A stretch of DNA of 64,000 nucleotides from Xiphophorus maculatus (lineage: Eukaryota; Chordata; Actinopteri; Cyprinodontiformes; Poeciliidae), in assembly GCF_002775205.1 (NCBI RefSeq), contig NC_036456.1, positions 23,370,968 to 23,434,967 on the forward strand, given 5' to 3'. The notes below the pieces were generated by a model. The model made no database searches. It saw only the letters and a list, made by a program, of their open reading frames with translations, and had not been told where the DNA came from. The stretch's first letter is position 1, and every line of letters starts with the position of its first letter. The position numbers were made by a program, and so were the translations under genes. Below, piece after piece: positions 10,383 through 35,265 of the stretch.

Positions 10383-10513
10383 GGTTGTTTAAGAAATGAG
10401 GAGTTACTCATTGCATCAGCTGGGGTTAAATAACTTGTTGAAAGCTGAAAGATAATCGCCTATGCAGTACTTATCCAATAGGAGGCTTGTACCTATTTGC
10501 TTAGTTAAATCCA

Positions 10514-11827: not shown

Positions 11828-12124
11828 GAATGTCTGGACGGGCCCCTGAATGTCTGGAGGGGCCCCTGAATGTCTGGACGGGCCATTGATTGTCTGGAGG
11901 GGCCCCTGAATGTCTGGACGGGCATTTGAATGTCTGGACGGGCCCCTGAATGTCTGGAGGGGCCCCTGAATGTCTGGAGGGGCCTCGAATGTCTGGACAG
12001 GCCATTGATTGTCTGGAGGGGCCCTTGAATGTCTGGACGGGCCCCTGAATGTCTGGAGGGGCCCCTGAATGTCTGGACGGGCCCCTGAATGTCTGGACGG
12101 GCCCCTGAATGTCTGGACGGGCCC
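11828..12124. repeat. 20-bp minisatellite, about 15 units
   Basis: The unit is GAATGTCTGGACGGGCCCCT with gacgg/gagg variants; I count 15 TGTCTGG cores. Homologous arrays at 22983-23101 and 29555-29652 have 6 and 5 units. It lies about 560 bases past the TRIM stop codon, probably beyond the polyadenylation site. Confidence 0.95.
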
Positions 12125-12280
12125 TACCAGCAGCTACTGAGTTTTCTTTGCCCTGATTTTTCTGAATCTTAAAATTCTCAGAGGTGCTAACATCAAAAAC
12201 ATTATGCAGAGTTAAACCCTCTGAGCTTTTTCAATGTTTAAAGCAGCCAAGTTGTTATAGACAGTCAGATATTATTTGGG

Positions 12281-12286
12281 TTTATT
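12281..12286 (-). terminator. Likely polyadenylation signal of the TRIM gene at 12681
   Basis: TTTATT on the plus strand, AATAAA on the gene strand, about 395 bases past the stop. It is conserved at 23258-23263 and 29809-29814 in the paralogous units. Confidence 0.5.
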
Positions 12287-12680
12287 TAGTAAAAAAGCAG
12301 GAAATTTGCTTATTTCATAACTTCATAACCAGAGATCTTCTCTCCTATAGTCTAACAGCTACAGTCTCAGATCAACACAATCCTTCAGCTGTCAGCAGCA
12401 GAAACCACAACTTTACACCTATCAAGAAAAAAGACTACATTTGCTTTGCATTGTCCCCACATGATGACAGGGACACAGTAGGATCCAATTAAATATTAGA
12501 TTCTTGATGGGTTGTTGCTATGTTGTTGTACGTTGTTTTAAGATCTTGTTCAATGAACCTTTTTAACGATGAAACCCTGCAGCTCCAAAGATCTCTGCAC
12601 GGCCCTGCTCCGAGGAACTGTTGGTTCAGTCACTGTCCCGGTGCCAGTACCAGAACTAAGATTTCTAGGCCAGTTGGTTT

Positions 12681-14138
12681 TTATAGCCGTCTCACCACTC
12701 GTCCCCTTGCATAGAATGGACGTGGGGGCAAGATTGGTTGGGGTGGGGACACAGCTGTGGATAAAAGAGAGGATGGGGCTGGGGGTGCAGGGTTGGAGTG
12801 GGTGGGGTGAGCTCTGCAGATAATAAAGGATTTGGCTGGACGTGAAAGGGTAGGTAAGGGCATAAGAGAGGATCGAGGTGTAAGTGGGAGGTCAGATAAG
12901 GAGAAACGAGGGGGTGGAGGTGGAGGGGCAGCTATGGAGCGTCTGGGCATGGGGATGATTGGCCTGCGTTTCCGACTGAAGTCATCAAGGTTAGTCTTTA
13001 AACATTGACCTGCGATTTCCTTGGCAATTGGTTTTGGTTCTGCCAGTAGAACATCCACCTCAGTGACCTTCAGTTCAATATTTGTCCATGTTTCTCTCGG
13101 GATGTCCTGCATTATGTCTCTGAGCTCTGACACAGCTGCTGTCACGTCCTCAAAGTGTCTCAGAGGACGGATGTTGATGCTGGATGAGTGTGTAGACTCA
13201 CTGAGTGCTGGCAGTGAGGGGTAGTTGAGGAGAAACTGGTTGTGATCCTCTGTGTGTGAGAGCTGCTCCAGCTCAGCGTCTTTCCTCTTCAGCTCAGTGA
13301 TCTCCTGCTCCAGCTTCTCCTGAACATCTTTGACTCGACTCACTTCAGTTTCCTGCTGGGATCTGATCTGCTGCTTCACATCAGAGCTTCTTTCCTGGAG
13401 GAGACGGATCATCTCGGTGAAGATCTTCTCATTGTCCTCCACTGCTTTATCAGCAGAGACATTGATGGCCTCCACCTCCTGTTGAAGCAGCTTCACATCT
13501 TTCTCTTGGTCCTGGATTCTCTGATGGATTTGTTGTCGACTCTCCTGGAGCTTCTTCTGCTTCTCAGCTCTTTCTGCTGCAGCTGGGACTGTTTCATGGC
13601 CTTTATGTTTATCCATAGTGCAGAGATAACAGATACACTGCTGATCAGTACGACAGAAGATCTTCATCACCTCATCATGATGAGAGCAGATGTTGTTCTG
13701 GAGCTTCTTGGAGGGATCCACCAGTTTGTGCTTTTGTAATGGTGGAGCATCATGGTGAGGTTGGAGGTGATTCCCACAATAAGATGCATGACAAGTTAAA
13801 CAGGACTTAACAGCTTTCATTTTCCTCCCAGTGCAGACATCACAGGCCACATCTTCAGGTCCAGCATAACAGTGATCAGCTGCAGCAACTGTCTTTTTCA
13901 AATTTTCAACCAACGTTGCTAACATGATGTTTTTCTTCAACATAGATCTCTGCCTAAATGGCTCTCTGCACTGAGGGGAGCTGTGTAATCTACTCTGATC
14001 TTCTCCATCCCAGGAGATTTTAATACAGTTCATACAGTAGCTGTGTCCACAGGGAATAGTCACTGGATCCTTCAGTAGATCTAAGCAGATGGAACAAGAC
14101 AAATTATCTTGGTCTTGGGAATCTCTTCTCTGCGCCAT
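12681..14138 (-). CDS. SPRY-less TRIM with mosaic proline-rich tail; RING ligand lost
   Basis: 485 residues, one exon. A RING (residues 15-57), B-box1 (about 99-138), B-box2 (about 151-183, complete) and coiled coil (about 190-300) align with the SPRY-bearing gene at 4791. After EPKP, where PRY would begin, the protein switches to MAGQ-like sequence and a proline-rich tail (IAAPPPPPPRF, NPAPPAPSS, SPPQPILPPRPFY, ending RGRVVRRL). The seventh RING zinc ligand is serine (residue 54, SSPQC instead of SCPQC), so E2 binding is probably impaired. The tail combines stretches resembling the tails of both the 17663 gene and the 23657/30210 genes, suggesting a recombinant origin. The start is the first ATG in frame; a GTG-opened extension upstream is not used. 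Target and partners of the tail are unknown. Confidence 0.88.
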   Translation of the reverse strand: MAQRRDSQDQDNLSCSICLDLLKDPVTIPCGHSYCMNCIKISWDGEDQSRLHSSPQCREPFRQRSMLKKNIMLATLVENLKKTVAAADHCYAGPEDVACDVCTGRKMKAVKSCLTCHASYCGNHLQPHHDAPPLQKHKLVDPSKKLQNNICSHHDEVMKIFCRTDQQCICYLCTMDKHKGHETVPAAAERAEKQKKLQESRQQIHQRIQDQEKDVKLLQQEVEAINVSADKAVEDNEKIFTEMIRLLQERSSDVKQQIRSQQETEVSRVKDVQEKLEQEITELKRKDAELEQLSHTEDHNQFLLNYPSLPALSESTHSSSINIRPLRHFEDVTAAVSELRDIMQDIPRETWTNIELKVTEVDVLLAEPKPIAKEIAGQCLKTNLDDFSRKRRPIIPMPRRSIAAPPPPPPRFSLSDLPLTPRSSLMPLPTLSRPAKSFIICRAHPTHSNPAPPAPSSLLSTAVSPPQPILPPRPFYARGRVVRRL

Positions 14139-14300
14139 TTCAGCTCTCAGAAATAACTGAGTTTCTCTTTCCAACAACAGCAACTGATTTGAGCCAGGTG
14201 TAAATATCACGTTCCTGAAAAGAGTGTCACTGATTCCACCTATCGTGATGTTTATAAACCAGAGGGGGAGGGAACAAAGTAGGACTTTGAACTGATTACT
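14139..14300 (-). promoter_or_regulatory. Promoter-proximal block of TRIM at 12681, with ISRE
   Basis: On the gene strand GGAAAGAGAAACT (14160-14172) fits the ISRE core GAAANNGAAACT exactly, 21 bases before the ATG. Further upstream GGTTTATAAAC (about 14252-14262) could serve as a TATA-like element, with a start of transcription near 14228. The whole block is duplicated at 19004-19165. Confidence 0.55.
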
Positions 14301-15601
14301 GTCTGCCGAACTGAAAACGTTTTTACAATTGAGTTTATTTTAAAAGGCCGTTGAGCTCAGGTTAAAAGTGAGCAGTTTCTATTCTAATTTGGTTGCAACT
14401 CCACAAAATTGCATGCTATGAAAACTATCATAGCATCCTGTTTTTATCTTAGTAAAAATTAACCATTCAAAAAGCTACATAAATCATGTGCAAATCATGT
14501 ACATAAACAAAAGATTATGGGTCACAAATATTTAATTGGTTTATGATGTTTTTGTCCCAAATATAGAAACTTCCACCCGTACTGGCACTCAACGTGAAAG
14601 ATATTCAATAAGGGTTCAATAAGTTCAATAAGGGGCATTATCTTACACTGAAGCATTTAGAAGGATCCAGTCTTAAATTTTAATTCATTTTTTGGATTCT
14701 CTCTTCAAAATTGGAAAGACAAGACAACAAATAATTTAAGAGGAGTAGCAGGAGAGGAAATTATAGAAAATTACTTCAAGAAAAATATCTCCTTCCCAAA
14801 ATGTTCCCCATATTTAGTCAGAACTTCTGAATAATTGAATTAATCTACCAACATAAGGAATGAGGCAAACCTGCTGAGATAAGACACATTTATGCCAGCG
14901 GAGTGCACAATGACTTTCTCTTCTGTCAGTCCCTGCCAACAAACACCACAAGAGAAGCAATTTTAAACTCAAGTTTTTGGTGAAGAATAATGTGGATTGG
15001 TAAAGACACGTCTGGATTTGTACAGATGGTGCAACTGCAATGATAGGAAAACAGAAAGGATTCATTTGTTTGTGCAGTTTACTCATCTGCTGCTACAACA
15101 CACTGTTCCACCCACAGAGAACAGCTGAGATAATGTCTAAAATCTGTTGTGGACGAGTCTGAATACAATTAACCAGATCGAAGGAAAGTGTTGCCTTGCT
15201 AACAGAAGGCTGCAGGTTGCTCTGGTGAGCGCTGCACTCGGGCCAAACGAAACTGAAGGCTGTGGTGTTTTTCCTTCGTCACTACCCGGCATTTCCAGGC
15301 CTTTAAAGATGGCAGCGTCAACTGTTGAAGCGTCAACAGAAAGCCACTGAACGCATGTCTTCTCCAAGCGCTGTGTGATGAAGTAGGAAGCGAACACACA
15401 AAGTGTGTTTCACGCACAGGTTTGTTGGTTACCATCGGAAAAGTTCTCACACATCTGTTTGAACTTCAAGATGAGGTAAAACTCTTCCTGGACCATACTT
15501 ATGAATTGCATAAAAAAAGGTGGATAATTTCTAATGGCTCACAAAATTGGCATACTTAGCTGATATTTTCAGCACACTCAACACATTGAATTTGGTTTTG
15601 C

Positions 15602-15900
15602 ATGGAAGGCTATCACCACTTTCATTGTCCAGGAGAAAGTTTGGATGATGGCGGTAGGAGTTTGTTCCTCATTCAGTGGGTTGCTGGTTTGGCTCCTGTT
15701 GTTTGCCTCTGTTGTGTCTTTGAGCAAGACACTTCACCTGCCTTGCCTGCTGGTGTAGGTCAGAGGTCCCGATGTAACCGGTGCTTGGCAACCTCAGTTC
15801 TGCCAGACTCCCCCAGGGCAGCTGTGGCTACTATCCAGTAGCTTGCCACCATCAGCGTATGAATGAGTGCACAACATTTGCAAGACCTTCAATCACAGCG
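15602..15900 (+). repeat. Interspersed fish repeat
   Basis: Contains gtgggttgctggtt, ttgagcaagacacttcacc and ccccagggcagctgtggcta, phrases I recognise from a widespread teleost interspersed repeat. The exact family is not certain. Its duplicate is at 20440-20740. Confidence 0.55.
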
Positions 15901-17229
15901 GGAGATTGCTTGATGTTGTGTTTCCATCCGAATTTGAAGTCTTTTAGATTTCTGAATTAAATGTTACGATCTGTGATTACTTCATCCAATGCCAGTATGT
16001 TTTAGTTCTTGTGGGTGGCAAGGCCTCAGCTGCTTGGTGTTATTAGTCGACTTTCTTCAGTTTTAATAGAATTTAGCCTGATTGTTGTTGCAGTTTGTTA
16101 ATTGTAGTTTGGTGTTTTGAGTCTGATTCAGAGTTAGGTGTTGATGCTTATTTATTGATTAAATACTGTATATTTTTGCAAGTTACAGTACAGACATTTT
16201 ACATTAAAATAATTTAACCCTTCATGTTATTTTGCTGTATGATGAAAGTTGTTTTATTGTGAAATTGTAGTCATGTTACTACTGTCCATTTGATTACATT
16301 TTCTACCACTGGGCTTGTGGTAGAAACACAATAAGCAAACCCATACACAGTTTCAGTCAAAGTTTATTCATTTAAAAAAATTTCCCTTCCAGCTAAAAGC
16401 TTTTAATTTGATTTGAAGTTAAAAGCAAACAAACTGCACACCCAGTTAGATCAACAACTACATAAAGGAACTTTTAGCAAACAGCAGCTTGTAAAGCCAC
16501 ACCTGTAGTTAAACATTTAACATAATCAGAAACAACCTTTGTACCTCCAGCACCACTTCTGATTAAAAACCAGGTCTGGCAGCTGTTGCTATCTTTCATT
16601 TACAAGTTGAAGGTCTTATTTACAGAACTACAGTCTTCATGTGTGGAACAAATCACGACATGAAATTTACTCACATCTCACGGATATGACGTTAATTTGC
16701 TGATTCTCGTCAATCAACCAAATTTATTTGTATAACACATTTCAACAATATGACAGCTCAAAGTGCTTCAATCGCAAAAACATAAAAATCCATCATAGAC
16801 AAATATAGTAGGTAATTTAAGGGGAATTTTTACTTTACAAATGATTAACAGCCAATTCACACGGGATTAAGATGACAGACAATCTGTGCTATTAATACAA
16901 ATATGTGATCAACAGAGTTTATCACTGTAGTGGTGATACGCTAGTTTAAAATTGCAGTCAAATCCACATATATCCTAGTTCTTTTAGAACAGAAAACATT
17001 AAAGAGGCAAATTTCTGACGCAGTCCCATCAAAGCATGCTAAAGAAAATATAAAATAACACATCTTAGAGCTGTATTTATACTGTGACATCAGGAAATTG
17101 TGATATTTCTACCTGAGGTTATTATACTGGCCCATTCCAATTTGGGGACGACAGTTAAAAGGGTTAATAATATTGGACAATTTGTGCTTAATGTCCAGCA
17201 ACCCCCACTGCTAACAAAGCCATTACAGA

Positions 17230-17410
17230 GAAAAGAAACCTAGCATCGGACCACTGACACCTGGATCAGTTCTCAGCTCCCTTCACCAACAAATCTCCAC
17301 CTTTGGTTCTGGTTGGGTTCTCTTTGTTCCATGAAGTCTCATACGGGGTACCCCAAGGTGTAATCCTGGGACTCCTCTTATTAAATATCTATATGCTCCC
17401 ACTAGCTCAG
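17230..17410 (+). mobile_element. LINE reverse-transcriptase fragment
   Basis: Bases 17342-17410 read YGVPQGVILGLLLLNIYMLP, which matches the conserved GVPQGSxLGPLLF motif of LINE reverse transcriptases, probably of the L2 type. The frame is short and decayed. Duplicate copies lie at about 22070-22255 and 28645-28830, so it was present before the TRIM units multiplied. Confidence 0.8.
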
Positions 17411-17468
17411 GTTATTTCACATTATTAAACAAACCATGAAAACCATAACTGCAAGATTATGAGAATCA

Positions 17469-17474
17469 TTTATT
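17469..17474 (-). terminator. Likely polyadenylation signal of TRIM at 17663
   Basis: TTTATT on the plus strand gives AATAAA about 190 bases past the stop codon on the gene strand. Confidence 0.5.
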
Positions 17475-17662
17475 AATACACAGACTTCATCTACTATCAA
17501 ACAAGACAAATTAAATCATTATTAGTTACTTCTCAGATTATTCTCCTCTTGCATCTTTTTTGTTGCCGTTTCTGTAAAACAAAAAGACTAACAGAATTAC
17601 ATATCAATCAAATGATTAAAATCTAACCTTCTTAACTTTCTTTTTATCCCAACAAAAGAAGA

Positions 17663-19003
17663 TTATTTCGTGTATGGATAAAAACAATTCATAGGATAGT
17701 ATGGCTGTTCATAAACGAAAGGATTTGGCTGGACGTAAGGGGTTTGGTAAGGGAGAGGACGTCCCATATTTGGGAGGACAGATGAGGGGAAAGGAGAGGG
17801 TGGAGGTGGAGGGGCAGCTATGAAGAAAGGAGAGGATGGGACTAGTTGTGGAGGTTTGGTCCTGTCGCATAACTGGTTGGGTCTGTCTGACCTGCAGTCA
17901 CTGACGTCATCAAGGTTAGTCACATCAGTGACCTTCAGTTCAACGTTTCTCCATGTTTCTCTCAGGAGGTTCTGCATTTCGGCTCTGAGCTGTGACATTT
18001 CTGGTGTCATGTACTCAACGTCACTCAGAGGACAGATGTTGCTGATGGGTTCGGGTTTACAAACTCTGAGTGCTGGCCTTGAGGGGTAGTTGAGGAGAAA
18101 CTGGTTGTGATCCTCTGTGTGTGAGAGCTGCTCCAGCTCAGCGTCTTTCCTCTTCAGCTCAGTGATCTCCTGCTCCAGCTTCTCCTGAACATCTTTGACT
18201 CGACTCACTTCAGTTTCCTGCTGGGATCTGAGCTGCTGCTTCACATCAGAGCTTCTTTCCTGGAGGAGACGGATCAGCTTGGTGAAGATCTTCTCCCTGT
18301 CCTCCACTGTTTTATCAGCAGAGACATTGATGGCCTCCACCTTCTGTTGATGCAGCTTCACATCTTTCTCTCGATCCTTTATATTCTGCTGGATTCGTTG
18401 TCGACTCTCCTGGAGCTTCTTCTGCTTCTCAGCCCTTTCTGCTGCAGCTGGGACTGTTTCATGGCCTTTATGTTCATCCATAGTGCAGAGATAACAGATA
18501 CACTGCTGATCAGTGCGACAGAAGATCTTCATCACCTCATCATGACGAGAGCAGATGTTGTTCTGGAGATTCTTGGAGGGATCCACCAGTTTGTGCTTTT
18601 GTAATGGTGGAGCATCATGGTGAGGTTGGAGGTGATTCCCACAATAAGATGCATGACAAGTTAAACAGGACTTGACAGCTTTCATTTTCCTCCCAGTGCA
18701 GACATCACAGGCCACATCTTCAGGTCCAGCATAACAGTGATCAGCTGCAGCAACTGTCTTTTTCCAATTTTCAACCAACGTTGCTAACATGATGTTTTTC
18801 TTCAACATAGGTCTCTGCCTAAATGGCTGTCTGCACTGAGGGCAGCTGTGTAATCTACTCTGATATAATCCATCCCAGGAGATTTTAATACAGTTCATAC
18901 AGTAACTGTGTCCACAGGGAATAGTCACTGGATCCTTCAGTAGATCTAAGCAGATGGAACAAGACAAGTTATCTTGGTCTTGGGAATCTCTTCTCTGCGC
19001 CAT
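17663..19003 (-). CDS. SPRY-less TRIM with proline/aromatic tail
   Basis: 446 residues, one exon. RING (about 15-57) has all eight ligands, including SCPQC; B-box1 and B-box2 are complete, followed by the coiled coil. After VTNLDD the protein has no PRY-SPRY but a tail of about 85 residues: IAAPPPPPSPF, then a run rich in proline and aromatic residues ending QPYYPMNCFYPYTK. This end differs from the RRL end of the other three tailed copies. With its flank it is the sister of the gene at 12681: 5' halves and upstream 3.5 kb are nearly identical. The E3 function looks intact; substrate binding by SPRY is absent, and polyproline may bind WW, SH3 or EVH1-type partners (inference). The start is the ATG at 19001-19003, just downstream of an exact ISRE. 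Confidence 0.9.
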   Translation of the reverse strand: MAQRRDSQDQDNLSCSICLDLLKDPVTIPCGHSYCMNCIKISWDGLYQSRLHSCPQCRQPFRQRPMLKKNIMLATLVENWKKTVAAADHCYAGPEDVACDVCTGRKMKAVKSCLTCHASYCGNHLQPHHDAPPLQKHKLVDPSKNLQNNICSRHDEVMKIFCRTDQQCICYLCTMDEHKGHETVPAAAERAEKQKKLQESRQRIQQNIKDREKDVKLHQQKVEAINVSADKTVEDREKIFTKLIRLLQERSSDVKQQLRSQQETEVSRVKDVQEKLEQEITELKRKDAELEQLSHTEDHNQFLLNYPSRPALRVCKPEPISNICPLSDVEYMTPEMSQLRAEMQNLLRETWRNVELKVTDVTNLDDVSDCRSDRPNQLCDRTKPPQLVPSSPFFIAAPPPPPSPFPSSVLPNMGRPLPYQTPYVQPNPFVYEQPYYPMNCFYPYTK

Positions 19004-19165
19004 TTCAGCTCTCAGAAATAACTGAGTTTCTCTTTCCAACAACAGCAACTGATTTGAGCCAGGTGTAAATATCACGTTCCTGAAAAGAGTGTCACTGATT
19101 CCACCTATCGTGATGTTTATAAACCAGAGGGGGAGGGAACAAAGTAGGACTTTGAACTGATTACT
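19004..19165 (-). promoter_or_regulatory. Promoter-proximal block of TRIM at 17663, with ISRE
   Basis: GGAAAGAGAAACT on the gene strand (19025-19037) is an exact ISRE core, 21 bases before the ATG. The block duplicates 14139-14300 almost without change. Confidence 0.55.
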
Positions 19166-21886
19166 GTCTGCCGAACTGAAAACGTTTTTACAATTGAGTG
19201 GATTTTAAAAGGCCGTTGAGCTCAGGTTAAAAGTGAGCAGTTCCATTCTAATTTGGTTGCAACTCCACAAAATTGCATGCTATGAAAACTATCATAGCAT
19301 CCTGTTTTTATCTTAGTAAAAATTAACCATTCAAAAAGCTACATAAATCATGTGCAAATCATGTACATAAACAAAAGATTATGGGTCACAAATATTTAAT
19401 TGGTTTATGATGTTTTTGTCCCAAATATAGAAACTTCCACCCTTACTGGCACTCAACTTGAAGGATATTCAATAAGTTCAATAAGGGGCATTATCTTACA
19501 CTGAAGCATTTAGAAGGATCCAGTCTTAAATTTTTATTCATTTTTTTTAATTCTCTCTTCAAAATTGGAAAGACAAGACAACAAATAATTTAAGAGGAGT
19601 AGCAGGAGAGGAAATTATAGAAAATTACTTCAAGAAAAATATCTCCTTCCCAAAATGTTCCCCACATTTAGTCAGAACTTCTGAATAATTGAATTAATCT
19701 ACCAACATAAGGAATGAGGCAAATCTGCTGAGATAAGACACATTTATGCCAGCGGAGTGCACAATGACTTTCTCTTCTGTCAGTCCCTGCCAACAAACAC
19801 CACAAGAGAAGCAATTTTAAACTCAAGTTTTTGTGAAGAATAATATGGATTGGTAAAGACACGTCTGGATTTGTACAGATGGTGCAACTGCAATGATAGG
19901 AGAACAGAAAGGATTCATTTGTTTGTGCAGTTTACTCATCTGCTGCTACAACACACTGTTCCACCCACAGAGAACAGCTGAGATAATGTCTAAAATCTGT
20001 TGTGGACGAGTCTGAAAACAATTAACCAGATCGAAGGAAAGTGTTGCCTTGCTAACAGAAGGCTGCAGGTTGCTCTGGTGAGCGCTGCACTCGGGCCAAA
20101 CGAAACTGAAGGCTGTGGTGTTTTTCCTTCGTCACTACCCGGCATTTCCAGGCCTTTAAAGATGGCAGCGTCAACAGAAAGCCACTGAACGCATGTCTTC
20201 TCCAAGCGCTGTGTGATGAAATAGGAAGCGAACACACAAAGTGTGTTTCACGCAGAGGTTTGTTGGTTACCATCGGAAAAGTTCTCACACATCTGTTTGA
20301 ACTTCAAGATGAGGTAAAACTCTTCCTGGACCATACTTATGAATTGCATAAAAAAAGGTGGATAATTTCTAATGGCTCACAAAATTGGCATACTTAGCTG
20401 ATATTTTCAGCACACTCAACACATTGAATTTGGTTTTGCATGGAAGGCTATCACCACTTTCATTGTCCAGGAGAAAGTTTGGACGATGGCGGTAGGAGTT
20501 TGTTCCTCGTTCAGTGGGTTGCTGGTTTGGCTCCTGTTGTTTGCCTCTGTTGTGTCTTTGAGCAAGACACTTCACCTGCCTTGCCTGCTGGTGTAGGTCA
20601 GAGGTCCCGATGTAACCGGTGCTTGGCAACCTCAGTTCTGCCAGACTCCCCCAGGGCAGCTGTGGCTACTATCCAGTAGCTTCCCACCATCAGTGTATGA
20701 ATGAGTGCACAACATTTGCAAGACCTTCGATCACAGCAGGGGATTGCTTGATGTTGTGGTTCCATCTGAATTTGAAGTCTTTTAGATTTCTGAATTAAAT
20801 GTTACGATCTGTGATTACTTCATCCAATGCCAGTATGTTTTAGTTCTTGTGGGTGGCAAGGCCTCAGCTGCTTGGTGTTATTAGTCGACTTTCTTCAGTT
20901 TTAATAGAATTTAGCCTGATTGTTGTTGCAGTTTGTTAATTGTAGTTTGGTGTTTTGAGTCTGATTCAGAGTTAGGTGTTGATGCTTATTTATTGATTAA
21001 ATACTGTATATTTTTGCAAGTTACAGTACAGACATTTTACATTAAAATAATTTAACCCTTCATGTTATTTTGCTGTATGATGAAAGTTGTTTTATTGTGA
21101 AATTGTAGTCATGTTACTACTGTCCATTTGATTACATTTTCTACCACTGGGCTTGTGGTAGAAACACAATAAGCAAACCCATACACAGTTTCAGTCAAAG
21201 CTTATTCATTTAAAAAAATGTCCCTTCCAGCTAAAACCTTTTAATTTGATTTGAAGTTAAAAGCAAACAAACTGCACACCCAGTTAGATCAACAACTACA
21301 TAAAGGAACTTTTAGCAAACAGCAGCTTGTAAAGCCACACCTGTAGTTAAACATTTAACATAATCAGAAACAACCTTTGTACCTCCAGCACCACTTCTGA
21401 TTAAAAACCAGGTCAGGAAGCCGTTGCTGTCTTTCATTTACAAGTTGAAGGTCTTATTTACAGAACTACAGTCTTCATGTGTGGAACAAATCAGACATGA
21501 AATTTACTCACATCTCACGGATATGACGTTAACTTGCTGCTTCTCGTCAATCAACCAAATTTATTTGTATAACACATTTCAACAATATGACAGCTCAAAG
21601 TGCTTCAATCGCAAAAACATAAAAATCCATCATAGACAAATATAGTAGGTAATTTAAGGGGAATTTTTACTTTACAAATGATTAACAGCCAATTCACACG
21701 GGATTAAGATGACAGACAATCTGTGCTATTAATACAAATATGTGATCAATAGAGTTTATCACTGTAGTGGTGATACGCTAGTTTAAAAATGCAGTCAAAT
21801 TCACATATATCCTAGTTCTTTTAGAACAGAAAACATTAAAGAGGCAAATTTCTGACGCAGTCCCATCAAAGCATGCTAAAGAAAAT
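19166..21886. other. Upstream/intergenic part of unit A, copy 2
   Basis: Same content as 14301-17050: the hAT-like peptide relic near 20290-20325, the interspersed repeat at 20440-20740, and the fish repeat piece near 21545-21660. No gene was seen. Confidence 0.5.
20440..20740 (+). repeat. Interspersed fish repeat, duplicate
   Basis: Duplicate of 15602-15900 carried by unit A. Confidence 0.55.
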
Positions 21887-22069
21887 ATAAAATAACACAT
21901 CTTAGAGCTGTATTTATACTGTGACATCAGGAAATTGTGATATTTCTACCTGAGGTTATTATACTGGCCCATTCCAATTTGGGGATGACAGTTAAAAGGG
22001 TTAATAATATTGGACAATTTGTGCTTAATGTCCAGCAACCCCCACTGTTAACAAAGCCATTACAGAGAA

Positions 22070-22255
22070 AAGAAACCTAGCATCGGACCACTGACACCTG
22101 GATCAGTTCTCAGCTCCCTTCACCAACAAATCTCCACCTTTGGTTCTGGTTGGGTTCTCTTTGTTCCATGAAGTCTCATACGGGGTACCCCAAGGTGTAA
22201 TCCTGGGACTCCTCTTATTAAATATCTATATGCTCCCACTAGCTCAGGTTATTTC
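22070..22255 (+). mobile_element. LINE reverse-transcriptase fragment, second copy
   Basis: Same GVPQG motif segment as at 17342-17410, duplicated with the unit. Confidence 0.75.
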
Positions 22256-22982
22256 ACATTATTAAACAAACCATGAAAACCATAACTGCAAGATTATGAG
22301 AATCATTTATTAATACACAGACTTCATCTACTATCAAACAAGACAAATTAAATCATTATTAGTTACTTCTCAGATTATTCTCCTCTTGCATCTTTTTTGT
22401 TGCCGTTTCTGTAAAACAAAGACTAACAGAATTACATATCAATCAAAGGATTAAAATCTAACCTCCTTAACTTTCTTTTTAGACCAACAAAAGAAGATTA
22501 TATCATGTATGGAAAATCACAATTTAAACCAAAAACCTGAAACATAACTAGTGAGGTATTCACTCTTAAAGTATTGTAAAATTTCTGCACATCGTGTTTC
22601 TTTGGTCCAAATTACCACAGTCTCTTGGAGATGCTGGGTCCCCATCATCGGTTTAAGGGATCATTAGTTCAGTGATCACTTGTTGATTGTTTCCTGTGAC
22701 ATCTGTGTACATGAGTTTCCACCAGCTTCCATTTTTTCTGAGCATGTGGCTGAAGAACTTCTTGCCTGCAGCTGCACCAAACTACCAGTAGGTGGCTCCA
22801 AAGAACTAAAAATCCCTGAAGAGGATTCCCTCTAGTCAATTATCTTCACTTCCTGCTTGCAAGCCACTTTTTTCATCTTTTATTAGTGCCTCTGCCTCCA
22901 TGTTGTTAAGACACCAGGCTCAAGGTAAAGTTGAGGAGGGTGGAACTGCATCTGTGGTCTGTGTTACATTCAAGTATTTATA

Positions 22983-23101
22983 GAATGTCTGGACGGGGCC
23001 CTGAATGTCTGGATGGGCCCCTGAATGTCTGGAAGGGGCCCCTGAATGTCTGGACGGGCCCCTGAATGTCTGGACGGGCCACTGAATGTCTGGACGGGCC
23101 C
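22983..23101. repeat. 20-bp minisatellite, 6 units
   Basis: Same GAATGTCTGGACGGGCCCCT unit as at 11828-12124, with six cores. Confidence 0.93.
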
Positions 23102-23257
23102 TACCAGCAGCTACTGAGTTTTCTTTGACTTGATATTCCTGAATCTTAAAATTCTCAGAGGTGCTAACATCAAAAACATTATGCAGAGTTAACCCCTCTG
23201 AGCTTTTTCAATGTTTAAAGCAGCCAAGTTGTTATAGACAGTCAGATATTATTTGGG

Positions 23258-23263
23258 TTTATT
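23258..23263 (-). terminator. Likely polyadenylation signal of TRIM at 23657
   Basis: AATAAA on the gene strand about 395 bases past the stop, at the position conserved in the paralogues. Confidence 0.5.
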
Positions 23264-23656
23264 TAGTAAAAAAGCAGGAAATTTGCTTATTTCATAACTT
23301 CATAACCAGCGACCTTCTCTCCTATAGTCTAACAGCTACAGTCTCAGATCAACACAATCCTTCAGCTGTCAGCAGCAGAAACCACAACTTTACACCTATC
23401 AAGAAAAAAGACTACATTTGCTTTGCATTGTCCCCACATGATGACAGGACACAGTAGGATCCAATTAAATATTAGATTCTTGATGGGTTGTTGCTATGTT
23501 GTTGTACGTTGTTTTAAGATCTTGTTCAATGAACCTTTTTAACGATGAAACCCTGCAGCTCCAAAGATCTCTGCACGGCCCTGCTCCGAGGAACTGTTGG
23601 TTCAGTCAATGTCCCGGTGCCAGTACCAGAACTAAGATTTCTAGGCCAGTTGGTTT

Positions 23657-24997
23657 TCATAGCCGTCTCCCCGCTCGTCCCCTTGATCTCATTATAAATA
23701 ATGGTGGTGGGCGGAAGAGTGGTTGGGGTGGGGATTCAGCTGTGGAGAAAAGAGAGGATGCAGGTGGGGGTGGAGGGTTGGCTCTGGAGCGGGGCCGGGG
23801 GATGAATAGCCTACGTGTCCAACTTGAGTGATCAGGGGTATGGTATACAGTCTTTAAACATTGACCAGCCATTTCCATGGGAGTTGGTTCTAGTTCTGAC
23901 AGTAGAATCTCCACTCTAGCTACTGCATCTGAGATGTTTCTCCATGAGTCTCTCATGACGTCCTGTAGTTGATCTCTGAGCTCTGACACAGCTGGTGCCA
24001 CGTCCTCAAAGTGTCTCAGAGGACAGATATCGATCCTGGATGAGCCTTTAGACTCACTGAGTGCTGGCAGTGAGGAGTAGTTGAGGAGAAACTGGTTGTG
24101 ATCCTCTGTGTGTGAGAGCTGCTCCAGCTCAGCGTCTTTCCTCTTCAGCTCAGTGATCTCCTGCTCCAGCTTCTCCTGAACATCTTTGACTCGACTCACT
24201 TCAGTTTCCTGCTGGGATCTGATCTGCTGCTTCACATCAGAGCTTCTTTCCTGGAGGAGACGGATCAGCTCAGTGAAGATCTTCTCACTGTCCTTCACTG
24301 CTTTATCAGCAGAGACATTGATGGCCTCCACCTCCTGTTGAAGCAGCTTCACATCTTTCTCTTGGTCCTGGATTCTCTGATGGATTTGTTGTTGACTGTC
24401 CTGGAGCTTCTTCTGCTTCTCAGCCCTTTCTGCTGCAGCTGGGACTGTTTCATGGTCTTTATGTTCATCTATAGTGCAGAGATAACAGATACACTGCTGA
24501 TCAGTATGACAGAAGATCTCCAACACCCTATTATGACAAGAACAGATGTTCTCCTGCAGCTTCTGGGATGGATTCACCAGCTTGTGCATTTTTAATGGTG
24601 GAGTATAATAGTGAGGTTGGAGGTGATCCCCACAGTAAGAAGCTAAACACGTTAAGCAGGACTTGACAGCTTTCATCTTCCTCCCAGTGCAGACATCACA
24701 GGCCACATCATCAGGTCCAGCATAGCAGTGATCAGCTGGAGCAGCTTTTAGTCCAGTCTTCTTCAAATCTTCCACCAACTCTGCTAGCATGATGTTTTTT
24801 TTGAGGACAGGCCTCTCGCTGAAGGTTTTCCTGCACTGAGGACAGTTGTAGATTCTTCTCTGATCTTCTCCATCCCAGAAGTCTTTAATACAGTTCATAC
24901 AGTAACTGTGTCCACAAGGAATAGTCACCGGATCCTTCAGTAGATCCAAACAGATGGCACAAGAGAGTTTCTCCTGCTGGACTCCTCTCTGAGCCAT
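23657..24997 (-). CDS. SPRY-less TRIM with proline-rich, RRL-ending tail
   Basis: 446 residues, one exon. It starts [18 protein letters not shown]-box1 and B-box2 ligands are complete (CAIC, PCGHSYC, NCPQC; CDVC; CSCH, FCH, CICYLC). The coiled coil is almost identical to the other copies. After ELEP the tail runs MAGQCLKTVYH..., NPPPPPASSLFSTAE, SPPQPLFRPPPLF, and ends RGRAGRRL. There is no PRY-SPRY and none lies downstream. The start is the ATG at 24995-24997, matching paralogues; four codons upstream open only with TTG. It lacks the ISRE-bearing flank of the 12681 and 17663 genes and has a different upstream sequence. It is about 94% identical by my count to the gene at 30210. A cytoplasmic E3 ligase role is expected from the family; the tail's role is unknown. 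Confidence 0.9.
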   Translation of the reverse strand: MAQRGVQQEKLSCAICLDLLKDPVTIPCGHSYCMNCIKDFWDGEDQRRIYNCPQCRKTFSERPVLKKNIMLAELVEDLKKTGLKAAPADHCYAGPDDVACDVCTGRKMKAVKSCLTCLASYCGDHLQPHYYTPPLKMHKLVNPSQKLQENICSCHNRVLEIFCHTDQQCICYLCTIDEHKDHETVPAAAERAEKQKKLQDSQQQIHQRIQDQEKDVKLLQQEVEAINVSADKAVKDSEKIFTELIRLLQERSSDVKQQIRSQQETEVSRVKDVQEKLEQEITELKRKDAELEQLSHTEDHNQFLLNYSSLPALSESKGSSRIDICPLRHFEDVAPAVSELRDQLQDVMRDSWRNISDAVARVEILLSELEPTPMEMAGQCLKTVYHTPDHSSWTRRLFIPRPRSRANPPPPPASSLFSTAESPPQPLFRPPPLFIMRSRGRAGRRL

Positions 24998-27900
24998 TTT
25001 ACCTCTCAATAATGAAAGTTTGAATCAGTCAACTCCGAGTATAAATAGATGTAAGTTACACCCACCTTAAAAATATGTGGATAAACTGGTATGCCTGTGT
25101 TTCATAGAAGAGATGCTTTCAGGCTGATTCATTCCCACAAGGTGTTTAACTTTTTCTGTTCTCTGTTTCTGCATTTGTGGTAAAGATGGAGGTTCTGATA
25201 TTTATGTGAAATGAAATAACCATATTGTTTAATACAAAATAAACAAAAATTACTCAGTGACATATAAGTGTGCATGAGTCAACAGAAATGCTGAATAATT
25301 AGCATAAGCTTTAGAAAATACATTGCTGAAACTAATGTCTTAAAGCAAATAATGAGCACAATTCTGCACAGAAATAAAAGAGGACTGGGTTTATTCCTGG
25401 AAATAAAGAAATAACAAGTGTTGCATTGTATCCAGAAATTTCACTGAAATGGAGAGTATTAATAGTTCACAATAATACTCAAGTAATGTTGTTGAATACC
25501 ACAGTTTCCAACAACTGTCGTATCCAACAAAATATATATTTATATTTGCTGAAAATCAGAGAAAAAATGTTGCTCCTCTGCCGTCTCCCAGCGCTAACTA
25601 GAAACAACCAATCAGAGCCAGGCGCTGCTCCTACGCTCCACTGCCAGCTGGTGTGACCCAGAGTAAAACCTGCCCTCATGCATTCCTGTACTGCTCTGAA
25701 TGCATTACTATTGGTTATACTCACAGTCAGTCACATAATGCATTCAGCCAGTTACTGTGTCTGGAGTGGTAATACAGACCTACTCCAGTTTCCCCAGTCA
25801 GGTGTGAGAGGGAGGGAAGCTGTGATGGTTGGTGCTTCTTCCCCCTCCATCTCACCAAACTGATACACAAATCACTATTCACCTCTAATCCGTTGAGTAG
25901 AAATGGCGCTTTAACATTTTCATAGAAATTACTCATCTTCTCCAGAGTTTCTTCATCCTGTTAAAAGGTTTTATTGGACCTGTGTCAGAACTGGACCTCC
26001 CTGTTTCCTCTGTTGTCCTTAGCAGCAACAAGTGGACGATCCAAGTATGACACTCTGGGCTGGACTTAGAGAAGTTGTTGTAATTAAACAAGGACAGCAC
26101 AAATAAACTATTATATTTTAATTTTTGAACATTTTCATGTATTCCCCACTTTCTATTGAGTTTGTATAAACTTTTCACTGGGATGTCCAACTCATGAGGC
26201 ATTCTGAGATACTTGGTTCTCTTCTGATCTCCTTTCCCTGTTCTCCATGTCTACCTTTCACAGCATGGCTACATTCCAGCTGCCACTACACTTCTCTGCA
26301 CGAGTCAGCATCCAAGTCCACCGTTTTAGACCATCTCCTTCAACACAGATGGACAAAACATGGTAGCTGCACTGAGGTTGAAGCAGACAATTTTACAAAT
26401 GTATTGTGAGTTTCTTTGTGAATGTGTGTTTCCTTGATTACTCACTTCACATAGTTCAAACACCATCACACCTGCTGGAATGCATAAGGAAAACTTCCTT
26501 ATGCAGAAGGAAAACTTCCGTTTGCCTTCCAGCACAAAGACGTTTTTTATTGAGCAGGTTCAGCAGAAACAAAACCCAAGAACACTTCCAGTGTTTGAAC
26601 AGCGCATTCCTCAGACAGTCTGTTTCTAACAAACTTGTTTCTTCTCAGCGTTTCCATCACTGAGTCTAAAATCAGAAGGTTTACGTAGATCATTGGCTTT
26701 CATTCCTAATTTTCAGAATCCACTGTCTTTCATGCTTTAGATATTTCTCTGCACCAGCACACCTGCATTAAATGAATGCATTAACCACTAAACATGCAAT
26801 TAAGTGCTACAGAAGTCTAGCAGTCATTAATTTACTTACAGCAGGTTTGTGGGGGCAGGAAAATGCCTAAAACTTGCTGGACTGTGGCTCCTGAGGAATA
26901 GTTCTGGACAGAACATCAGTACATAGAAAAATAAATAGTTTGCTAAAATGAAGGTAAAGTTGTTTCATCAGTGACTGTACCATTAAAAATCATGTTTTTT
27001 TAAAACAACTTACAGGGTTCCCCCCCCCCCCATCTCTTTACATTAGATTGAGTTTCTCATAGTTCAAAGGAATACATAGAACTTTTACAGAAAGTACCTA
27101 AAAATATACAAGCACAGACACAAACATGAGGAGGAAAGCCAACAAAAATATTAAAAATAAAAACAGCGCAGTGTGTAAGAGTCTGTAAATGGAGCTCCTT
27201 GGTCTGCAGGAGTCCTCAGGAGAAACTGTCCTTTACAGCATCAGAAAATATGTAAATTATAACTTCTGATGCTCCTCCTCCTGCAGGAGCGGTGCAGTGA
27301 TTTGGAAACATGAATTTGTCCCTATCATCCAGATGCAGACAGTCTAGTACTTACAGAGCAAATCTCACCACAATAGAGACATTGGTTGAATCAAAGTTTG
27401 AAATATTTCAGGAAATCAAAAATATTTGATTTGTAAGGAGCTGATACTGCCAATTCAGCCAGCAGAGGGCAAAAGCAGTGGCATTACAAATCGATCAATA
27501 GTATAAGTGTTAGTTGCCAGGGCATCTGAAAGTCAGTTCACCTGTCTCCCTTTATAAGATGTCCAGTCAGTGTAGGATGATTCTTGTATCGTGGAATTAT
27601 TTTCCATTTTCTGGTTTTCAGATGTTTCATATTCCCGAGTGCCAATTCATCCATAATCTTCCTCTTATCCTTGATTGATTTGTAGATGCAGAGATGCCCA
27701 AACTTCCCTCTTTTCTACTGGAATCCCAAAGTAATCCAACATGGTCATTCCAGCATATCCTTTCTTTAAGATTATTTTTTTGAGAATAAACCTTGCTGTT
27801 AATTTATCCGCTTAGTTGTCTTCTTTCTGACAGATTTGTTGGTTTATTGGTTTTGACACTTTTTTATCTTGAGTTTTGCTGCCACCATGTGGCCAAATTG

Positions 27901-28141
27901 ATGATAGTATATTTAATTCTAGGTAGCTCAAAGATTTTGGTTTCTGAAATGATACAATGCAGCCGTATAGTGCCTTCAATAAGACATTGTACAGTGTGTG
28001 TGTTCTGAACCTGAACCACGTTAACATCACAAGAAACACTGTGTATGAATATAATTCATTGATGTGTACAATACAGTATAGTTTCAGTCTATTTAATACA
28101 CCACAATCAACTTATCTGGTGGTTAAAAATGAAAACTTGTC
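24998..28141. other. Upstream/intergenic part of unit C, copy 1
   Basis: No gene supported. A repeat piece with aaccaatcagagccaggcgc near 25600-25630 resembles a common fish repeat. A hairpin lies at 26481-26505. A C-run lies near 27018. About 27320-28012 is absent from the sister unit and contains a decayed coding-like stretch on the minus strand (near 27620-27780, MTMLDYFGIPVEKREVWASL) that I could not assign; it may be a LINE relic. Confidence 0.45.
26481..26505. repeat. Perfect 11-bp hairpin within a larger imperfect palindrome
   Basis: TGCATAAGGAA pairs with TTCCTTATGCA around a 3-base loop. Flanking tgctggaa (about 26473-26480) and ttccagca (about 26527-26534) extend the symmetry. The copy near 33281-33345 has one changed loop-side base. 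Confidence 0.75.
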
Positions 28142-28458
28142 TTAAACTATTGTTTTAATTTCCATTAAAAATGTTGCTTATGTTTCATTATGCAATTATT
28201 TTCTTCTGTGTTGTTGCTGAACTAAATTGATAAGATTGAAAGAAATGTGCACAGATAATCAGCACATCAGATACAAGCTGTAACCTGTAGGCTGTGAAGG
28301 CTGTCTACTTTACTTATATAGGGCCATAGATCTAGTCAAAGTAAAATCTTATCTACACCAGAAGACGATGTATTTTGATACAGGATGTCGCCTCTCCTGT
28401 TTCTACGCCCAAAGAAAGGTTATTTTCTCATGTAAAGTGTGTGTGTGTGTGTTCTGGG
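28142..28458. other. Unique spacer between the two unit C copies
   Basis: Not found in other units. It ends in a (GT)n run at about 28436-28451 directly before the start of unit C copy 2, a plausible duplication breakpoint. Confidence 0.6.
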
Positions 28459-28644
28459 ATAAAATAACACATCTTAGAGCTGTATTTATACTGTGACATC
28501 AGGAAATTGTGATATTTCTACCTGAGGTTATTATACTGGCCCATTCCAATTTGGGGATGACAGTTAAAAGGGTTAATAATATTGGACAATTTATGCTTAA
28601 TGTCCAGCAACCCCCACTGCTAACAAAGCCATTACAGAGAAAAG

Positions 28645-28830
28645 AAACCTAGCATCGGGCCACTGACACCTGGATCAGTCCTCAGCTCCCTTCACCAACA
28701 AATCTCCACCTTTGGTTCTGGTTGGGTTCTCTTTGTTCCAGGAAGTCTCATACGGGGTACCCCAAGGTGTAATCCTGGGACTCCTCTTATTAAATATCTA
28801 TATGCTCCCACTAGCTCAGGTTATTTCACA
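28645..28830 (+). mobile_element. LINE reverse-transcriptase fragment, third copy
   Basis: Third copy of the GVPQG segment found at 17342-17410. Confidence 0.75.
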
Positions 28831-29554
28831 TTATTAAACAAACCATGAAAACCATAACTGCAAGATTATGAGAATCATTTATTAATACACAGACTTCATC
28901 TACTATCAAACAAGACAAATTAAATCATTATTAGTTACTTCTCAGATTATTCTCCTCTTGCATCTTTTTTGTTGCCTTTTCTGTAAAACAAAGACTAACA
29001 GAATTACATATCAATCAAAGGATTAAAATCTAACCTCCTTAACTTTCTTTTTAGACCAACAAAAGAAGATTATGTCGTGTATTGAAAATCACAATTTAAA
29101 CCAAAAACCTGAAACATAACTAGTGAGGTATTCACTCTTAAAGTATTGTAAAATTTCTGCACATCGTGTTTCTTTGGTCCAAATTACCACAGTCTCTTGG
29201 AGATGCTGGGTCCCCATCATCGGTTTAAGGGATCATTAGTTCAGTGATCACTTGTTGATTGTTTCCTGTGACATCTGTGTACATGAGTTTCCACCAGCTT
29301 CCATTTTTTCTGAGCATGTGGCTGAAGAACTTCTTGCCTGCAGCTGCACCAAACTACCAGTAGGTGGCTCTAAAGAACTAAAAATCCCTGAAGAGGATTC
29401 CCTCTAGTCAAATATCTTCACTTCCTGCTTGCAAGCCACTTTTTTCATCTTTTATTAGTGCCTCTGCCTCCATGTTGTTAAGACACCAGGCTCAAGGTAA
29501 AGTTGAGGAGGGTGGAACTGCATCTGTGGTCTGTGTTACATTCAAGTATTTATA

Positions 29555-29652
29555 GAATGTCTGGACGGGGCCCTGAATGTCTGGATGGGCCCTTGAATGT
29601 CTGGGGGGGCCCTTGAATGTCTGGACAGGCCCCTGAATGTCTGGATGGGCCC
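29555..29652. repeat. 20-bp minisatellite, 5 units
   Basis: Same unit as at 11828 and 22983, five cores with more internal variation (gacagg, gggggg). Confidence 0.92.
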
Positions 29653-29808
29653 TACAAGCAGCTACTGAGTTTTCTTTGCCCTGATATTTCTGAGTCTTAA
29701 AATTCTCAGAGGTGCTAACATCAAAAACATTATGCAGAGTTAACCCCTCTGAGCTTTTTCAATGTTTAAAGCAGCCAAGTTGTTATAGACAGTCAGAAAT
29801 TATTTGGG

Positions 29809-29814
29809 TTTATT
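29809..29814 (-). terminator. Likely polyadenylation signal of TRIM at 30210
   Basis: AATAAA on the gene strand about 395 bases past the stop, conserved with the paralogues. Confidence 0.5.
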
Positions 29815-30209
29815 TAGTAAAAAAGCAGGAAATTTGCTTATTTCATAACTTCATAACCAGAGATCTTCTCTCCTATAGTCTAACAGCTACAGTCTCAGAT
29901 CAACACAATCCTTCAGCTGTCAGCAGCAGAAACCACAACTTTACACCTATCAAGAAAAAAAGACTACATTTGCTTTGCATTGTCCCCACATGATGACAGG
30001 GACACAGTAGGATCCAATTAAATATTAGATTCTTGATGGGTTGTTGCTATGTTGTTGTACGTTGTTTTAAGATCTTGTTCAATGAACCTTTTTAACGATG
30101 AAACCCTGCAGCTCCAAAGATCTCTGCACGGCCCTGCTCCGAGGAACTGTTGGTTCAGTCAATGTCCCGGTGCCAGTACCAGAACTAAGATTTCTAGGCC
30201 AGTTGGTTT

Positions 30210-31550
30210 TCATAGCCGTCTCCCCGCTCGTCCCCTTGATCTCATCATAAATAATGGTGGTGGGCGGAAGAGTGGTTGGGGTGGGGATTCAGCTGTGGAG
30301 AAAAGAGAGGATGCAGGTGGGGGTGGAGGGTTGGCTCTGGAGCGGGGCGGGGGGACGAATGGCCTGGGTGTCCAACTTGAGTGATCAGGGGTATGGTATA
30401 CGGTCTTTAAACATTGACCAGCCATTTCCATGGCAGTTGGTTCTAGTTCTGACAGTAGAATCTCCACTCTAGCTACTGCATCTGAGATGTTTCTCCATGT
30501 TTCTCTCAGGACGTCCTGTAGTTGATCTCTGAGCTCTGACACAGCTGGTGCCACGTCCTCAAAGTGTCTCAGAGGACAAATATCGATCCTGGATGAGCCT
30601 TTAGACTCACTGAGTGCTGGCAGTGAGGGGTAGTTGAGGAGAAACTGGATGTGATCCTCTGTGTGTGAGAGCTGCTCCAGCTCAGCGTCTTTCCTCTTCA
30701 GCTCAGTGATCTCCAGCTCCAGCTTCTCCTGAACATCTTTGACTCGACTCACTACAGTTTCCTGCTGGGATCTGATCTGCTGCTTCACATCAGAGCTTCT
30801 TTCCTGGAGGAGACGGATCAGCTGGGTGAAGATCTTCTCACTGTCCTCCACTGCTTTATCAGCAGAGACATTGATGGCCTCCACCTCCTGTTGAAGCAGC
30901 TTCACATCTTTCTCTTGGTCCTGGATTCTCTGCTGCATTTGTTGTCGACTCTCCTGGAGCTCCTTCTGCTTCTCAGCCCTTTCTGCTGCAGCTGAAACTG
31001 TTTCATGGTCTTTATGTTCATCCATAGTGCAGAGATAACAGATACACTGTTGATCAGTATGACAGAAGATCTCCAACACCCTATTGTGACAAGAGCAGAT
31101 GTTCTCCTGCAGCTTCTGGGATGGATTCACCAGCTTGTGCATTTTTAATGGTGGAGTATAATAGTGAGGTTGGAGGTGATCCCCACAGTAAGAAGCTGAA
31201 CACGTTAAGCAGGACTTGACAGCTTTCATCTTCCTCCCAGTGCAGACATCACAGGCCACATCATCAGGTCCAGCATAGCAGTGATCAGCTGGAGCAGCTT
31301 TTAGTCCAGTCTTCTTCAAATCTTCCACCAACTCTGCTAGCATGATGTTTTTTTTGAGGACAGGTCTCTGCCTGAAGGTTTTCCTGCACTGAGGACAGTT
31401 GTAGATTCTTCTCTGATCTTCTCCATCCCAGCAGTCTTTAATACAGTTCATACAGTAACTGTGTCCACAAGGAATAGTCACCGGATCCTTCAGTAGATCC
31501 AAGCAGATGGAACAAGAGATTTTCTCCTGCTGGACTCCTCTCTGAGCCAT
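30210..31550 (-). CDS. SPRY-less TRIM with proline-rich, RRL-ending tail (sister copy)
   Basis: 446 residues, one exon, sister of the gene at 23657. RING, both B-boxes and the coiled coil are complete. The tail again lacks PRY-SPRY: NPPPPPASSLFSTAE, SPPQPLFRPPPLF, ending RGRAGRRL. Most differences from the sister change an amino acid; in the tail R-to-P, L-to-P, I-to-V, R-to-P and I-to-M are visible. The start is the ATG at 31548-31550; the four codons before it open only with TTG. Its upstream flank is like the sister's and lacks the ISRE block. Partners and targets are unknown. Confidence 0.9.
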   Translation of the reverse strand: MAQRGVQQEKISCSICLDLLKDPVTIPCGHSYCMNCIKDCWDGEDQRRIYNCPQCRKTFRQRPVLKKNIMLAELVEDLKKTGLKAAPADHCYAGPDDVACDVCTGRKMKAVKSCLTCSASYCGDHLQPHYYTPPLKMHKLVNPSQKLQENICSCHNRVLEIFCHTDQQCICYLCTMDEHKDHETVSAAAERAEKQKELQESRQQMQQRIQDQEKDVKLLQQEVEAINVSADKAVEDSEKIFTQLIRLLQERSSDVKQQIRSQQETVVSRVKDVQEKLELEITELKRKDAELEQLSHTEDHIQFLLNYPSLPALSESKGSSRIDICPLRHFEDVAPAVSELRDQLQDVLRETWRNISDAVARVEILLSELEPTAMEMAGQCLKTVYHTPDHSSWTPRPFVPPPRSRANPPPPPASSLFSTAESPPQPLFRPPPLFMMRSRGRAGRRL

Positions 31551-34819: not shown

Positions 34820-35265
34820 TTAAAAGTAACTTCCGGAAGTTCGTCGCCTCGCTTCCTGTAGCTTCACAGTGGCCCAGTCAAAACAATGCAGTGTAGCAGC
34901 TGCGAGTAACGTCAGCTTTAAAGAGCAAAAATCTAATTTCTCCACGGTCTCGGTGCTCCGTGTCCGCCCGCTTGCTGTATCACCCCGGCGGGCGTCGGTC
35001 GGATCGTGCCCGGGGTTTATTTCACTCCGAGCCGCCATTGTTCGGGATTTAACCGTTTTTGTTTGGCTGGAAATGGAATCCGCTAACGGCTGGCTGACAG
35101 CAGCAGAGGGGAGGGGCTGAACGGCGAAGCAAACCCGGAGTTTGCGTCGATAAACTCGGTGAAATAAACTCTCGGTAGGCCGGTGGGTGACATGGTGGAG
35201 TAGTAGTGCTCGTCGGCGCTGAAGCTCTCGGTGTCCTCCGACCTCTCTCCCCGGGGAGGACCGCC
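34820..35265 (+). promoter_or_regulatory. rnf150: RNF150 CpG-rich promoter and 5' untranslated region
   Basis: CG density rises sharply against the AT-rich surroundings. AACTTCCGGAAGTT (34828-34841) is a perfect palindrome made of two head-to-head ETS sites, a usual feature of TATA-less housekeeping promoters. The start of transcription is not visible. The leader ends at ccgccATGg, a strong start context. Confidence 0.65.

Follow-up and report, generated by a model that had tools for sequence, protein, structure and literature searches.

The question raised by this locus is how four neighboring fish genes came to end in a proline-rich tail in the place where their relatives carry a PRY-SPRY (B30.2) domain, and what proteins built in this way might do. 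The genes, here called A to D, lie in a window of 64,000 nucleotides of the Xiphophorus maculatus genome (contig NC_036456.1, positions 23,370,968 to 23,434,967) and encode the RING, B-boxes and coiled coil of the TRIM proteins. They represent a real C-terminal variant of a known, fast-changing family, and the variant is found at this locus only. A fifth gene, S, is the sole gene complete in the window with PRY-SPRY and serves as the comparison. The genes and their tails are as follows.

Gene S, 4791..6383 (-): PRY and SPRY by Pfam; B-box 2 short of 21 residues.
Gene A, 12681..14138 (-), ATG at 14138: 485 residues; RING, B-boxes, coiled coil and a proline-rich end (119 residues from EPKP).
Gene B, 17663..19003 (-), ATG at 19003: 446 residues; RING, B-boxes, coiled coil and a divergent tail.
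Gene C, 23657..24997 (-), ATG at 24997: 446 residues; RING, B-boxes, coiled coil and a proline-rich tail.
Gene D, 30210..31550 (-), ATG at 31550: 446 residues; same layout as C, of which it is a recent duplicate.
A tail, 12681..13025 (-): includes 135 bases missing from C and D.
B tail, 17663..17920 (-): in part 78% identical to A tail DNA; its last bases match intergenic DNA downstream of C and D.
C tail, 23657..23881 (-).
D tail, 30210..30434 (-).

Position 12681 is the final base of the A stop codon and 31550 the first base of the D start codon, which confirms the span of 12681-31550. Each of A to D is a single open frame with a PPPPP block, and in all four Pfam finds a RING, one B-box above the cut-off and TRIM_CC, the first B-box being matched by PF22586 only below the cut-off. 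Neither PRY nor SPRY was found by Pfam in any of the four genes, and no Pfam family lies over the tails at an expect value (E) of 1 or less. An earlier note, made from the letters alone, had described a tandem set with open frames and a shared C-terminal replacement by PPPPP-containing tails, and both the Pfam layout and the translations agree with that description. The note had also asked for a PRY-SPRY domain search over the whole cluster. A hidden Markov model built from 15 SPRY domains (14 loci of the same genome, and S) was run over all stop-to-stop frames of at least 12 residues in the window; S was recovered at E 5e-90, the next-best frame scored E 1.5, and tblastn with the same 15 domains found no SPRY outside S in the window (best E 0.041). 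No SPRY was thus found downstream of the four units in the window, as had been claimed. The further statement that RING, B-boxes and coiled coil keep in step with S is correct in that the domains are present, but S is itself not intact, 21 residues of its second B-box being gone, and A has lost a RING ligand. Similarly, A to D do leave S after the linker that follows the coiled coil, but not exactly where PRY begins: tblastn similarity to S stops 8 to 19 residues ahead of the PRY start assigned to S by Pfam.

How unusual this layout is depends on the rest of the family. The Pfam SPRY model gave 150 matches in the genome (best 150 of 411 candidates) and the core of D gave 115 rows (best 110 of 622 candidates). 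The 80 loci with a core match that were examined (60, and 20 from a wider DNA query) are only part of the family. They comprise A, C and D themselves, six loci that end within the coiled coil (two with SPRY, four without SPRY in the stretch examined) and 71 whose sequence extends to the end of the coiled coil; this last set includes near-identical copies, and any small contigs in it may represent alternative haplotypes. SPRY sequence follows the coiled coil in 71 of 71, although in a few it is partial or frame-broken, and A to D are therefore exceptional among the examined part of the family. Most relatives inspected are one open frame from RING through SPRY. Another TRIM copy begins at window positions 3-239 and runs off the left edge, its continuation (L039) having SPRY, and a 5' fragment at positions 1125-1376 is similar to the sequence surrounding the start codons. 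A different C-terminal arrangement was seen about 0.4 Mb past the right end of the window, where L054:2-1489 (G000:C14:23830144-23832620) carries a finTRIM-type RING, the region that follows it and part of a coiled coil, fused to three LIM domains (E 1.1e-29 with Pfam LIM) in one open frame of 496 residues in the stretch examined and 532 in the genome table. It has no Pfam B-box match, and its LIM part has no close second copy, only pieces of 47% and 65% on C3; the layout of this fusion resembles that of TRIM5-cyclophilin.

We take A to D to be finTRIM-type genes, a label that derives from their architecture, the published exon sizes and single-exon description, and the general character of finTRIM sequence. 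RING, two B-boxes and a TRIM coiled coil are present in all four (A short of one RING ligand), and the genes cluster near SPRY-bearing relatives in the same genome, the core of D being 79-82% identical to several copies on the same chromosome. The C-terminal B30.2 domain, typical of the family but not universal, is absent. The finTRIMs are a large teleost TRIM family (PMC2657112), and in medaka 47 of 55 copies are single-exon and are called most probably retrotransposed (PMC2657112). Forms without B30.2 are kept within the family (PMC2657112, PMC3137616). A to D thus fit an intronless finTRIM family in which loss or exchange of B30.2 is already published, and the view that the layout belongs to no described family was overstated, precedents being given in PMC2657112 and PMC3137616. 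A proline-rich tail in a finTRIM or other teleost TRIM was not found in the open-licence literature searched.

Where, then, did the tail come from? The tails, which are C-rich (36-40% C), begin and end alike in A, C and D, and the stop codon, TAA in A and TGA in both C and D, takes the same position in all three; the tails of C and D are near copies, and A has its additional 135 bases in the middle. Query bases 82-196 of the A tail DNA align to the B tail at 78% (E 2e-17), and the final bases of the B tail correspond to intergenic DNA 1.1 kb downstream of D. The four tails share an origin yet are not one sequence. Against the genome, A-tail DNA matches A, B, C and D only (7 rows, 4 of 4 candidates scored). 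With a wider DNA query (best 40 of 101 candidates), 37 of 42 rows cover the coiled-coil side only, the other five being A, C and D, and when the D tail was extended into its 3' flank the first 289 bases matched only A, C and D among the matches listed. The A-tail and D-tail proteins found nothing convincing beyond the locus (all candidates scored): the D tail matches the locus only, and five outside rows for the A tail (E 0.026-0.8) are taken as chance, L024, L028 and L030 having frames without TRIM sequence, L029 lacking a frame of at least 120 residues, and L023 looking like a ZFP36-type zinc-finger gene. Apart from itself, the B-tail protein gave 143 weak rows, with E from 3e-4 to 1 (best 150 of 238 candidates). 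Five of these sites, on inspection, all contain the same repeat, which has tRNA-like boxes and is presumably a short interspersed element (SINE); since its DNA agrees with the B tail over 18-22 bases only (89-91%), the weak matches are read as composition, although the B tail may contain a small repeat-derived piece.

Three possible sources of the tail were rejected. An origin in frame-shifted SPRY is unsupported, as A-tail DNA has no match outside A to D, and no SPRY DNA appeared in the wider tail queries (best 40 of 101 and best 40 of 426 candidates). Derivation from another gene found no candidate in genome searches with the A, B and D tail proteins. Finally, the finTRIM-type gene L072 (G000:C21:24411515-24414197), a single frame, carries a linker of about 170 proline-rich residues that separates its coiled coil from PRY-SPRY; a genome search found no second copy of this linker (7 of 7 candidates scored), and it bears no convincing likeness to the tails.

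It could be argued that the tail represents intron sequence left unspliced, or a minor transcript end, and that the main transcript skips it to join a distant terminal exon. The break between body and tail falls approximately at the expected end of ancestral exon 5, the exon 5-6 boundary, computed from the published exon sizes of 555-594 + 96 + 234 + 154 + 60 bp (PMC2657112), and the tails of A, C and D contain a pyrimidine-rich stretch ending in CACAG. A retained intron 5 as a putative origin of the tail thus fits roughly by place, and A, C and D all continue with GTCAAT. Set against skipping of the tail, however, no other SPRY or remnant of one was found in the window, and most relatives inspected run in one open frame from RING to SPRY. 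We consider a spliced main transcript of this kind very unlikely.

If the tail marks the four genes as a group, their bodies do not, as is evident from the segments next to it.

Coiled-coil block, 5330-5880, 13028-13578, 17945-18443, 23884-24434 and 30437-30987: near-identical in family members on many chromosomes, where the RING parts differ.
Linkers between coiled coil and tail, A about 13026-13205, B about 17921-18080.

Of the rows compared, the nearest SPRY-bearing copies share 97-99% identity with the coiled coils of A, C and D and 95% with that of B; between A and D the RING is 82% and the B-boxes 86% identical. The nearest linker is that of L003 for A (93%) and, each other aside, that of L057 for C and D (89-91%); the linker of B has no close relative, its best match being L003 at 75%. 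In a tree of N-terminal parts with 30 rows (A to D, S, and 25 out of the 62 loci of full length, with L041, L047, L049, L052 and L065 left out for lack of a marker motif), A and B stand next to L046 (94/94, unstarred) and C and D are placed elsewhere. A single clade of A to D is not rejected, although the result is borderline (approximately unbiased test, p 0.0512). The bodies are mosaics, and the near-identical coiled-coil block may reflect gene conversion or strong constraint. The simplest account of these alignments would be a single origin of the tail with repeated overwriting of the body up to the tail edge; such a history would also make sense of how sharply the four genes seem to depart from S.

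Whether the genes are maintained is a separate issue, and here the strongest competing explanation must be weighed: A to D may be truncated copies drifting to pseudogenes, in which the frame, once SPRY was lost, ran into stop-poor C-rich DNA and acquired a functionless tail. In contrast with this view, C and D differ by no indel in 1341 aligned coding bases, tail included, compared with 12 in 3896 flank bases, and the A-B core, tail excluded, has none in 1083 bases compared with 7 in 3520 flank bases; pooled, 0 of 2424 coding and 19 of 7416 flank bases carry indels (Fisher p 0.0066). The A-D tail indels, of 9, 3, 135 and 9 bases, are multiples of three in four of four cases with the stop at the same place, and all eight RING ligands are retained in B, C and D. 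For A-C and A-D the ratio of nonsynonymous to synonymous change (omega) is 0.27-0.39 in RING and B-boxes, with upper bounds of 0.55-0.81.

Several observations, however, weigh against maintained, functional genes. Of the 12 flank indels between C and D, nine come from a single distant flank; with near flanks alone the test gives p 0.28 for C-D and 0.038 for C-D and A-B together, and A-B alone gives p 0.21. The tails of A and B are separated by gaps of 17, 4, 7 and 4 bases (one alignment), none a multiple of three; the 7-base difference that follows their matching part shifts B out of frame with A, and the end of the B tail is intergenic DNA. The RING of A carries Ser for Cys at the seventh zinc ligand. 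Tail omega is 1.03 for A-C (0.57-2.07) and 1.16 for A-D (0.59-2.58), and these comparisons thus do not support amino-acid constraint on the tail. Within the recent pairs (A-B, C-D), the bounds on omega for RING and B-boxes leave out 1 in just one case, the B-boxes of C-D, omega for the C-D coiled coil is 2.9 (0.68-5.27), and the selection seen in RING and B-boxes may predate the tail. By chance, dinucleotide-shuffled tails stay open in 3.2% (A), 3.9% (B), 8.4% (C) and 12.0% (D) of cases, A or D tails stay open in 29-34% after 19% random change, and in trials with random substitutions alone 20% keep the D frame open and 7.5% the A core. Nor does the predicted structure help, as an AlphaFold model from five sequences (mean pLDDT, the per-residue confidence score, 49.5) is confident in the coiled coil alone, RING being low too, and is too poor to judge whether the tail is disordered.

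Drift might also be read from the coding DNA being more divergent than the flanks (2.83 versus 1.59-1.66% for C-D; 6.0 versus 1.36% for the A-B core). We attribute the surplus to variants brought in by gene conversion, perhaps together with diversifying selection. Linker omega is high (A-B 5.5, 1.76-25.85; S-D 2.64, 1.32-8.48), which may reflect conversion from different paralogs or diversifying selection. Between A and D the 3' flanks (12020-12680, 29560-30209) differ by 2.2% and the tails by 16.4%. Taken together, the frames are probably, not certainly, under upkeep; the support is moderate, much of the signal coming from one distant flank. Drift is the main rival of a functional role and, to our mind, a quite possible, if not probable, explanation.

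The tail itself could be a new recruitment or target-recognition module, under selection to bind SH3, profilin or similar proline-binding partners. All four tails have PPPPP, A, C and D end in a basic RGRxxRRL, and SH3-type patterns occur in A (KRRPIIP, PPPPPR, PILPPR) and in C and D (RANPPPP). Proline-rich stretches often contain such patterns, however, and those in A are not those in C/D, and the tail omega of about 1 again argues against selection; we regard this possibility as improbable. As the tail shows neither constraint nor a recognized domain, the suggestion that these proteins recognize a new target through it is unsupported. A bolder proposal, that A to D are stable, gene-encoded SPRY-less finTRIM regulators in which the locus-specific tail is kept as a module that brings proline-binding signalling proteins, while conversion keeps the coiled coil matched to that of SPRY-bearing paralogs and the proteins thereby remain able to partner a changing antiviral repertoire, seems unlikely, though less so than selection on the tail for binding alone.

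The reading that we favor, tentatively and at a little short of even confidence, is that A to D are SPRY-less, intronless finTRIM-type genes with a tail from an ancestral replacement and a conversion-matched coiled coil, acting as partners or decoys of SPRY-bearing relatives. The genes would be retro-derived and would go back to a shared ancestor at this locus in which a C-rich reading frame, encoding a proline-rich, probably disordered tail, had taken the place of the B30.2 end. Later, gene conversion from paralogs that carry SPRY would have rewritten the bodies, chiefly coiled coil and linker, and the tail, for which no counterpart was found elsewhere, would have remained as the mark of the subgroup. 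If transcribed, the proteins could mix through their nearly identical coiled coil into the oligomers of SPRY-bearing relatives, which would be diluted or re-directed in the way that TRIM5alpha is by TRIM5gamma and TRIM5delta; at most, the tail would add proline-motif contacts. A role as partner or competitor through the shared coiled coil, one of the two suggested in the earlier note, is therefore plausible and our best guess as to function, its basis being coiled-coil identity. If the genes are expressed, they would provide a genomic, rather than splicing-based, counterpart of the TRIM5 short isoforms in a large fish TRIM family, and an instance of decoy or partner genes being kept in step with their targets by gene conversion. 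If they are not, the locus shows how C-rich DNA can supply open tails upon loss of B30.2.

The surroundings of the array include repeats, of which one lies close to the tails.

Dispersed repeat, 29628..30136 (-): begins about 74 bases after the D stop; the matches to C and A run through it too.

Thirty-eight of 43 listed rows for this repeat are outside the window, at 68-81% identity (best 40 of 426 candidates), and the first AATAAA after the D stop lies within it. In the 3' flanks of A and D the repeat begins with CAGGGCC, a candidate hAT-like end. A tRNA-like dispersed repeat at window positions 36492-36706, presumably a SINE, is 90-94% identical to copies on other chromosomes, and an open Tc1-type transposase frame of 353 residues lies between S and A (9327-10388, -). 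On the right are a PA-domain exon of a flanking gene (35191-35814, +), which we assume to be RNF130/RNF150-like, and flanking-gene frames ending in a GRIN_C domain (57255-60770, +).

Among known systems the finTRIM family is the closest. Like A to D, its members combine RING, two B-boxes and coiled coil, form clusters in one orientation, include single-exon copies, and have transcripts recovered both with and without B30.2, the trout ones with short unique C-termini (PMC2657112). In contrast, those short forms come from trout transcripts and multi-exon zebrafish genes, and a shared genomic proline-rich tail is not described in the available portions of that paper (PMC2657112). New class V genes, several ftrs included, have been born by loss of the C-terminal domain (PMC3137616), and class C-V itself, defined by absence and not homogeneous (PMC3137616), resembles A to D, which on Pfam at E of 1 or less have the tripartite motif without a specific C-terminal domain. 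In zebrafish ftr06 (chromodomain) and ftr52 (RanBD-cyclophilin A) B30.2 is likewise replaced within a finTRIM, but by known domains on separate exons (PMC3137616), whereas A to D carry an unrecognized tail in the same open frame. TRIM5gamma and TRIM5delta similarly lack B30.2, and are dominant negative to TRIM5alpha when over-expressed (PMC1906832); they are, however, splice isoforms of one gene (PMC1906832), whereas A to D are separate tandem genes.

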